A stretch of 64,000 nucleotides of DNA, taken from positions 1 to 64,000 of the forward strand of contig CAIXFN010000067.1 in assembly GCA_903918755.1 (NCBI GenBank). Reading direction: 5' to 3'. Of this stretch, positions 39,990 through 42,349 are shown one piece after another. This DNA is from an uncultured Pedosphaera sp. (GTDB lineage Bacteria > Verrucomicrobiota > Verrucomicrobiia > Limisphaerales > Pedosphaeraceae). How positions within the stretch are numbered: the stretch's first letter is position 1; the number at the start of each line of letters is the position of its first letter. The position numbers and the translations under genes are program-made. Under the pieces are notes generated by a model. That model was not told the origin of the DNA. It was given only the letters and a program-made list of their open reading frames with translations, and made no database searches.

Positions 39990-41807
39990 TCAATTTCCTT
40001 TCGCAACCGTGCTTGGCTCATACCATTCCCCCCGCAACCAGTCGGCGAGCAGGCCGATTTCCGCGGGCGTCAAAATCCCCTTGTCCCCAAATGCCGGCAT
40101 CCGGTCGTTGTGTTCACCGTAAAAGTCCGGGTGCGCCGGATTTTGCAGCAGGCGCACGAGGCAGTCACGCGAGGCGTAGCCGGTCAGGTCCGGCGCGGTG
40201 GCATCTTCGTCCTTGTTATGGAAACGGTGACAATCCGTGCAGCGCATTTCGTTCTTGAGCAAATCCGCCCCCTTTTTTAGCCCTTCCACATTGCGGAAAT
40301 CCGCCGCCGCCCGGGATTTGAAATGCGCTTCACCGGACAGGGCCGCGATTACCAGCTTCAGGTTTTCCTTCTGTTCCGGCGTGTATTTGGCCACATCCTT
40401 TTTCACGAACTTCGCCATTTTCCCATCGCGCGCCTTCCCGCCGCCAAAGTAATTCGTCGTGCTGATCCGTTCCGGATTCAGCAACCCGGCCAGCCATTCC
40501 GGCGAGCCAAAGCCCTGCAAATCCGCCGCCGACTGGGGTTCCTTCACCATCCCGCCCAGGCCATCAGTTCCGCCAAACCGGTGACAAGTGGCGCAATGTT
40601 TGGCAAACAGCTTTGGCCCTTGCGTGTAGGGATCCTGCCGCAAAAGGGTGACCGCCCCGGCTTCCGGAATCCCGGTAGGCGATTCCGCCAGCACTCGCAC
40701 CCGCGCCCCGTCGCGGTCCGCATTCTTCACGGCGAGTTGGTAATGCAAATTCCCGGAATCTTCACGCTTCGCCAGTAAGGTGAGCGTCGCCGCCCCCAAG
40801 AGCAGCACGCAGAGCAAGCCGACATTGAACCGCTGGCCCGCCTTGGAGCGGGCAATATAGGGCATCAGAAATACAGCCCCCATGATCACCGAAGGGATCA
40901 CAATGGCCCCCCAGATTTCCCGTCCCGCCGGAAAATATTTGAGGAATTGGAAAAGAAATAAAAAGAACCACTCCGGTCGCGCCGCCGAGTAGGGCTCGCT
41001 GGGATCCGCCGGAGCCCGTAGCTCCGCCCCTAGCTCCCCGTTGCCGCCCGCCAACCCCGGTCGCAGAATCACGAAAAGCACCGCGGCCAAGACCGCCAGA
41101 CAAGCCACCACGTCTCGCAGTGCCTGATCCGGCCAATAGGCGACGGTCGCGCGCGCCTGGCGATCGCCCGCGGCCCAGCCGTGGCGACAAAACAACCAGG
41201 TGCGCAGGCCCAAAACCACCAAGGTCGTGCCCGGTAAAACGCCGGCATGCAGGGCGAAAAACCGTGTCAGAGTATGATGACCGTAAACGCCACCGCCAAT
41301 CAGAATCCTTTGCAGATCCCCCCCAATCACCGGTACGATTCCCATGATATTGGTAGCGACGCGCGTCGCCCAGAATCCCTTTTGGTCCCAGGTCAGCAGC
41401 CAGCCGGTGATGGAGAAGCCGATCACCAGTTGCAGCAGGATCACGCCGCACCAGAAATTCACTTCCCGGGGTGCGCGATAGGCACCATCGAGCACCACCT
41501 GCAGCAAATGCAAAACCAGGAGTAAGGGCAACGCTTGCGCGTTAAAATGGTGTAACCCCCGCAGCAGCCAGCCACCCGTCATCTCATGCTGGATGAAATG
41601 CACACTTTCCCAGGCCGTCTGCGCGCTCGGACTATAGCTCGTCCAAAGGAAAAGTCCGGTGATGAACTGCACCGCGAGGGAAAACAGGACGGTGCTGCCC
41701 CAGACGTAGCGCCAGCGCGGACCGCCCGGAATCGGGGTGTAAAATGTCTCCCGGACCAGCGTCCGCAGGCCGGTTCGTTGCTCCAGCCATTCCAGCATTG
41801 CTTTCAT
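39990..41807 (-). CDS. cytochrome b fused to a diheme cytochrome c domain
   Basis: A 605-aa membrane subunit of a bc-type quinol:acceptor oxidoreductase. Residues 1-230 match cytochrome b6 with heme ligands His86, His100 and His187; the fourth position (202) is Arg. Residues 230-345 correspond to b6f subunit IV, with Qo motif PEWF (278-281). The C-terminal part holds two heme-c sites, CATCH (405-409) and CTDCH (523-527). It thus replaces a separate cytochrome c1/f. The ATG at 41807 overlaps the Rieske stop as ATGA. Confidence 0.9.
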   Translation of the reverse strand: MKAMLEWLEQRTGLRTLVRETFYTPIPGGPRWRYVWGSTVLFSLAVQFITGLFLWTSYSPSAQTAWESVHFIQHEMTGGWLLRGLHHFNAQALPLLLVLHLLQVVLDGAYRAPREVNFWCGVILLQLVIGFSITGWLLTWDQKGFWATRVATNIMGIVPVIGGDLQRILIGGGVYGHHTLTRFFALHAGVLPGTTLVVLGLRTWLFCRHGWAAGDRQARATVAYWPDQALRDVVACLAVLAAVLFVILRPGLAGGNGELGAELRAPADPSEPYSAARPEWFFLFLFQFLKYFPAGREIWGAIVIPSVIMGAVFLMPYIARSKAGQRFNVGLLCVLLLGAATLTLLAKREDSGNLHYQLAVKNADRDGARVRVLAESPTGIPEAGAVTLLRQDPYTQGPKLFAKHCATCHRFGGTDGLGGMVKEPQSAADLQGFGSPEWLAGLLNPERISTTNYFGGGKARDGKMAKFVKKDVAKYTPEQKENLKLVIAALSGEAHFKSRAAADFRNVEGLKKGADLLKNEMRCTDCHRFHNKDEDATAPDLTGYASRDCLVRLLQNPAHPDFYGEHNDRMPAFGDKGILTPAEIGLLADWLRGEWYEPSTVAKGN

Positions 41808-42349
41808 GCCAAGGGCACCCGGTCCGGACGACCGGCCTGGAAATTTTGGAAGACCACCCACACCCCCCCATCGGGTCGCACTTCCACCTCGAGGCCATCC
41901 AAGGAACGCGGGCTGGGACTGGAAGCATTGGCCACTTTTCCGTCCACGGTGAAACTGCTGTTGTGACAGGGACAGAGAAAATCACCTTTTTCCGGGGAAA
42001 AATCCACGAAACAACCCGCATGGGGACAAGCCACATTCAGCGCCTGGACCTTTTCTCCAGTCCGCCGCAAATACACCGCCCCAACCGGCACATTCGTGTA
42101 CTTATTCCAGGCATCCGTTCGATTGGCGAGCACTGGGAATTTCCGCGGCACCCCATCGTCGGGCAGGGCGGCCAAGCTCGTCACCTTCACGGCCCCACCG
42201 GCCGTTGCGCGCCGCCGCCAAGGGTCCAGCAACACCAGCAATCCGGCCGAGAGGGGTACCACCGCCAGAACACCAGTGATCACCATCGTAAGGGCCTTCT
42301 TGAAGAAGCCCCGACGATCACTGTGCGATCCGGCGTTCTTGGTATCCAT
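41804..42349 (-). CDS. Rieske [2Fe-2S] protein of a bc-type complex
   Basis: A 181-aa protein with a twin-arginine-like N-terminus (SDRRGFFKKAL) and one membrane anchor (about 21-41). Cluster ligands are in CPHAGC (108-113) and CPCHNS (126-131), preserving two Cys, two His and the disulfide pair. It transfers electrons from quinol at the Qo site of the downstream cytochrome b to the fused cytochrome c. First gene of the two-gene operon. Confidence 0.92.
   Translation of the reverse strand: MDTKNAGSHSDRRGFFKKALTMVITGVLAVVPLSAGLLVLLDPWRRRATAGGAVKVTSLAALPDDGVPRKFPVLANRTDAWNKYTNVPVGAVYLRRTGEKVQALNVACPHAGCFVDFSPEKGDFLCPCHNSSFTVDGKVANASSPSPRSLDGLEVEVRPDGGVWVVFQNFQAGRPDRVPLA

Follow-up and report, generated by a model that had tools for sequence, protein, structure and literature searches.

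In the order Limisphaerales the ligand of heme bH in cytochrome b has been lost, as far as the sequences tell, on at least four separate occasions, with Arg taking its place in three lineages and Tyr, Trp or Leu in a fourth. One of the Arg lineages is the genus of the uncultured Pedosphaera sp. whose DNA we analysed (hereafter the window: the whole stretch of 64,000 nucleotides). Both b hemes are required for the Q cycle, and their four histidines are accordingly treated as near-invariant. We think it probable that the window encodes a working Rieske/cytochrome b complex with no normal bis-His heme bH, in which the low-potential branch would be interrupted or much slower and a full Q cycle would not take place.

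Results

The cytochrome b of the window is fused to a diheme cytochrome c domain in one protein of 605 amino acids (Table 1), the sole match to PF00033 or PF13631 in its genome (G000), which is a draft of 7.19 Mb in 118 contigs, 96.9% complete with 2.55% contamination. The Pfam E-values are 6.5e-36 for PF00033, 8.9e-36 for PF13631, 1.7e-4 for PF00032 and 9e-12 for PF00034; the first three models all score above their cut-offs (PF00032 with 22.2 against 20.7 bits), and by Pfam both the N- and the C-terminal domain of cytochrome b are present. The operon partner, a Rieske protein whose gene overlaps the cytochrome b start by 4 bases, has an intact cluster motif, and c-type heme motifs are also there. 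The frames upstream of the Rieske gene we take, from their sequences, to be gyrA and gyrB.

Table 1 Positions in the window of the cytochrome b-c fusion, its Rieske partner and the residues discussed
Feature	Position	Strand	Basis
Cytochrome b fused to diheme cytochrome c domain, 605 aa	39990..41807	-	Pfam matches
Rieske iron-sulfur protein, 181 aa	41804..42349	-	PF00355, 1.4e-8
Rieske cluster motif CPHAGC	42011-42028	-	motif read in Rieske gene
Rieske cluster motif CPCH	41963-41974	-	motif read in Rieske gene
First c-heme motif CATCH	40581..40595	-	read from translation
Second c-heme motif CTDCH	40227..40241	-	read from translation
Gly37, bH-side glycine of helix A, retained in the window's genus	41697..41699	-	alignment
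His86, bL ligand	41550..41552	-	residue read
His100, remaining bH ligand	41508..41510	-	residue read
Gly121, bH-side glycine of helix C, retained in the window's genus	41445..41447	-	alignment
His187, bL ligand	41247..41249	-	residue read
Arg202 (CGC), at the place of the fourth heme-b ligand	41202..41204	-	codon and alignment
Phe281 (TTC), Qo motif PEWF for PEWY	40965..40967	-	codon read

The original prediction placed an Arg where the fourth heme-b ligand should be, with His86, His100 and His187 present and PEWF as the Qo motif. The three histidines are indeed there, the codons for Arg202 and Phe281 read as claimed, and a HMMER alignment puts Arg202 on a histidine of the Rhodobacter capsulatus cytochrome b (1zrt_C) that we take to be H212. 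PMC4807273 names H212 as a bH ligand. The bL bis-His pair (His86/His187) is present in the window protein, and the bH pair (His100/His202) is broken by Arg202. No substitute His, Met or Lys was found at the bH end of helix D (residues 193-206, GTTLVVLGLRTWLF), and His209 was rejected as a replacement ligand because at least 95% of the bis-His rows have it too. Under a strict definition by two bis-His hemes the protein is therefore a non-standard member of its family; by descent and fold it is a member. Gly37 and Gly121, which we take to be heme-packing glycines, are both in place. Most close relatives have PEWY or PDWY as the Qo motif. An AlphaFold2 model built from four sequences had a mean pLDDT of 38 and was set aside.

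Nor is Arg202 an isolated variant among relatives that uniformly have His, since the only other genome of the window's genus (g1) examined, G146, likewise has Arg202 and PEWF. Because G146 shares both, while His202 is kept in 136 of the 151 readable genomes or loci of the order and lost in 15, Arg202 is beyond chance. The gene order gyrB, gyrA, Rieske, cytochrome b-c, hydrolase is common to the two genomes, with identities of 91, 88, 67, 65 and 69%, respectively. A sequencing or binning artefact could be suspected in a draft genome where CGC and CAC differ by a single transition, and is rejected as very unlikely because the genus-mate carries Arg202 too, in an identically ordered cluster next to gyrA and gyrB. 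The low identity of the cytochrome b (65%, against 88-91% for the gyrase genes) and the alteration of further conserved residues in the genus (P139T, Y136W, Y281F) might also mean that the entire complex is decaying and little used, with Arg202 as one of many neutral changes. We regard such decay as improbable: the frames are open, dN is 0.26 against a saturated dS of 2.77 between the two species (NG86, cytochrome b part), the Rieske, c-heme and bL motifs, the operon and the gene order are all retained, and a like outcome is seen in several lineages. In helix D both species retain Arg202, most of its neighbours having changed; both also retain His100, Gly37 and Gly121. The full-length trees group the two species together (SH-aLRT 99 and 96), but the tree of cytochrome b only does not.

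Across the order, 320 genomes were searched. A match came from 181 of them, counting other types of cytochrome b as well, and the b-c fusion type could be examined in 155 genomes or named loci; L098 and L099, which have the same motif segments as L006 and L024, may duplicate them. All four His are present in 134 of the 155, His202 lies on a split gene or fragment in two (G202, G131), and residue 202 was unreadable in four (G100, G159, G208, G211). The cytochrome b-c gene of G202 (L118, family f24) is broken by one TAA stop, and both pieces keep their ligands. Eight genomes of the window's family were covered, its own among them, and the six outside g1 all have His202. Two genomes of this family (G143 and G073, at loci L073 and L074) have a second, divergent cytochrome b of about 40% identity with all four His, each with a COX1 gene on the same contig; the window's genome has no second PF00033 match.

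Arg202 was found in seven genomes, namely G000 and G146 (g1), G061 (family f2, genus g6) and G102, G149, G150 and G151 (g78). In f16, residue 202 is Tyr (G141, G162), Trp (G154, G156) or Leu (G157); G155 has Leu202, read by eye, and there His100, close to the end of a contig, is replaced by Tyr. Neither bH histidine is left in g86 (G123, G153), where helix D is shortened, His100 has become Leu and Gly37 has become Trp, and where the bL His, PEWY, Rieske and CxxCH motifs are retained, such that the b-c family persists with no bH ligands at all. As cases of bH loss, these two g86 loci (L072, L190) are stronger than the window itself. On contig 46 of G123 (L193) a sulfatase-like frame runs into a short proteobacterial-like cytochrome b piece at the contig edge, and this contig is probably chimeric or contaminating. 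G061 gained Arg202 and Phe281 independently within a PDWY/His genus, the 16 other genomes of g6 that were read all having His202 and Tyr281. Parsimony on quick trees counts 4 changes of the ligand with the full-length tree (53 rows) and 5 with that of cytochrome b, for which 69 rows were scored; independent pairs on well-supported branches number only 3, too few for a test.

Each of the 13 operons read, nine of which are ligand-less, retains the Rieske cluster motif (CPHxGC...CPCH) and two CxxCH; a fourteenth locus, L186, covers a flank that lacks the operon. Of 387 genomes searched in the phylum, 42 matched, the window's own among them, and apart from it the best match had 44% identity. Outside the order, the cytochromes b have four His and four packing glycines in 20 of 20 cases, taking one place per genome and the 20 genomes with the best places among the 41 others.

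The glycines of the two heme sites behave differently. Among rows above 130 bits, dropping those with a gap or X at these columns, the bL (p-side) helix glycines are kept in 163 of 163, and the bH (n-side) glycines are altered in 10 of the 12 rows that lack the ligand, compared with 10 of the 151 bis-His rows (Fisher p 4e-9, ignoring relatedness). The two ligand-less rows with both bH glycines intact are the window and G146, and g86 has Ala121 beside its Trp37. Altered bH glycines are unspecific as a sign of loss, because some bis-His relatives (L056, L060, L062, L066, L067) have other residues there as well.

The Qo tyrosine is linked to the bH pocket as well. Where the pocket is intact (117 rows), residue 281 is Tyr in 116 and Asn in 1, never Phe; where a bH ligand or glycine is altered, it is Phe in 16 of 24 rows. 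PEWY has become PEWF in three of the four ligand-loss lineages, while the losses in f21 keep Tyr281. Many of the rows with Phe281 and an altered pocket (window, G146, g7, g21, g30, g31, f16) form one clade in the cytochrome b and full-length quick trees; the PEWF group adjoins the window in the cytochrome b tree and one full-length tree, but not in another full-length tree. Since Phe281 tracks the altered pocket, the PEWF that had been remarked on separately from Arg202 belongs together with it. Nine loci of g7, g21, g30 and g31 (L060, L062-L067, L121, L122) have four His with Val or Leu at position 121 and PEWF; they may be at an earlier step of this loss, or have bH pockets shaped differently.

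We also compared the two sides of the membrane at 129 positions conserved at 95% or more in 114 bis-His rows, 48 being n-side and 70 p-side by helix assignment, with significance tests that ignore phylogeny. The excess on the n-side was not significant for the window (8/48 against 4/70 altered, p = 0.07), G146 (9/48 against 9/70, p = 0.44) or G061 (7 and 5), nor for f16 (16-20 n-side, 14-20 p-side). In g78 the counts are 18-19 n-side and 6-8 p-side, and in g86 35 (G123) and 36 (G153) of 48 against 13 and 12 of 70. Nine bis-His controls have 0-17 altered n-side and 0-13 altered p-side positions, and three of the four tested have an n-side excess at p < 0.05 (L060, L067, L056; not L062). Clear n-sided decay among the ligand-less rows is thus a feature of f21 only (g78, g86).

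Could heme bH still be bound and conducting via His100, with Arg202 either ligating weakly in the sixth position or capping a five-coordinate heme with a polar group, so that only potential and spin state would differ? We consider this possible, though unlikely. His100 and Gly37 are retained in all seven Arg genomes, where residue 121 is Gly, Cys or Ala, whereas all eight non-Arg ligand-less sequences have Val, Leu, Ser or Trp at position 37, 121 or both. Arg202 is retained in g1 (2/2) and g78 (4/4 readable), and its codons among the three typed in g78 are CGC and AGA, which argues that Arg itself matters. On the other side, no membrane b heme with an Arg ligand is known to us, and our narrow literature search for one was also empty; moreover, His to Arg is a one-base transition, so the three Arg lineages may reflect mutation bias only. 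Engineered R. capsulatus proteins speak both ways: H212K has a working His-Lys bH (PMC4807273), and the bL mutant H198N retains a one-His heme, high-spin and of high potential, that could not support turnover (PMC8138165).

A stronger version, in which Arg is a natural bH partner opposite His100, recruited independently in three Limisphaerales lineages to cap or ligate and retune the heme, seems to us doubtful. If it were true, there would be a natural non-His heme site inside a transmembrane cytochrome b, and the sister lineages lacking bH would be natural single-b-heme bc complexes without a Q cycle. The original prediction had left the choice between an altered low-potential chain and a different bH ligand. 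The altered chain gains support from the repeated losses and from the one genus in which the second bH His is gone and Gly37 is Trp; a different ligand could apply in g1, where His100, Gly37, Gly121 and Arg202 are all kept and a modified heme may therefore sit at bH. That the pocket in g1 still looks like a heme site is evidence against a cut branch there.

G000 also has another candidate for quinol oxidation. An alternative complex III operon lies on its contig 118 (L222), with genes for a multiheme c, a 1117-aa MoCo-like/FeS protein, NrfD, ActD (PF11821 at 1.2e-64), a cytochrome c and one frame without a Pfam match, and a COX1 gene comes after it; the other two of the three COX1 matches in G000 are on contigs 17 and 112. 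ActD was found in 14 of the 15 ligand-less genomes, the exception being G151 (79% complete), and in 271 of the 320 genomes of the order, with NrfD in 290. Being near-universal, alternative complex III does not discriminate the ligand-less lineages by its presence. A coupling of the loss to it was also considered in g6, where G061 (Arg) has NrfD and G001, G094 and G117 (His) do not. This coupling was rejected, as NrfD and ActD are near-universal and the His202 members G136, G186, G188, G189, G191 and G195 have ActD. Alternative complex III may be a permissive background, and which lineages lose the ligand stays unexplained by it.

Discussion

We favor the reading in which the complex works with an interrupted low-potential branch. 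It would be a quinol:cytochrome c oxidoreductase whose diheme c domain is fused to cytochrome b, and it would keep heme bL, the c hemes, the Rieske cluster and the oxidation of quinol at Qo. Qo would oxidise quinol and pass one electron to the Rieske cluster and on to the fused c hemes; the second electron would reach heme bL, but would not arrive at Qi at the usual rate, because the n-side site could not hold a normal bis-His bH. Either both electrons would then enter the high-potential chain, with half of the Q-cycle proton yield, or a modified one-His/Arg heme would still convey some electrons across. The cell may tolerate the broken branch because alternative complex III also oxidises quinol. 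The window's genus would represent an early stage with one ligand gone, from which other lineages went on to fill or delete the pocket.

In the order Limisphaerales the bH site has thus been lost recurrently with the bL, Rieske and c-heme motifs left in place, in a graded series from one altered ligand to a filled or deleted pocket. This suggests that half of the classic Q-cycle machinery has repeatedly been cut or rewired in nature. With this natural material one can ask how a bc complex operates in the absence of heme bH, and also whether an interrupted low-potential chain makes the Qo tyrosine less important. Our narrow search of open-licence literature found no report of a natural cytochrome b without the bH ligand; engineered mutants of this ligand are already known.

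The window protein is similar to the bc1-type cytochrome b of R. capsulatus (PDB 1zrt) in its N-terminal cytochrome b, its bL His pair, its Rieske partner and its PEW motif, and differs from it in having Arg for His212, PEWF and a diheme c fused C-terminally. It also resembles cytochrome b6 of the b6f complex (PDB 1vf5, 2zt9): its best NCBIfam match is the b6 subfamily, with 166 bits, below the cut-off of 325, and 15 residues separate the helix D ligand positions in both (by b6 numbering). Unlike in b6f, the chain is not split into b6 and subunit IV, residue 202 is Arg, and Val35 stands where b6 has a Cys, presumably the residue for covalent attachment of heme ci; of the 167 aligned rows, 3 have Cys35. 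Unusual energetics are also described for anammox Rieske/cytochrome b complexes, which are modelled with an added heme, not a lost one (PMC12954380). In PMC4807273, R. capsulatus H212N is called a 'heme bH knock-out', and natural Met or Lys ligands of integral-membrane hemes are described as unreported to its authors' knowledge, some being expected. The ligand position removed in H212N and H212K is the same as in the window; unlike in those engineered mutants, the change in the window is natural, genus-wide and recurrent in other lineages, with Arg in three of them.
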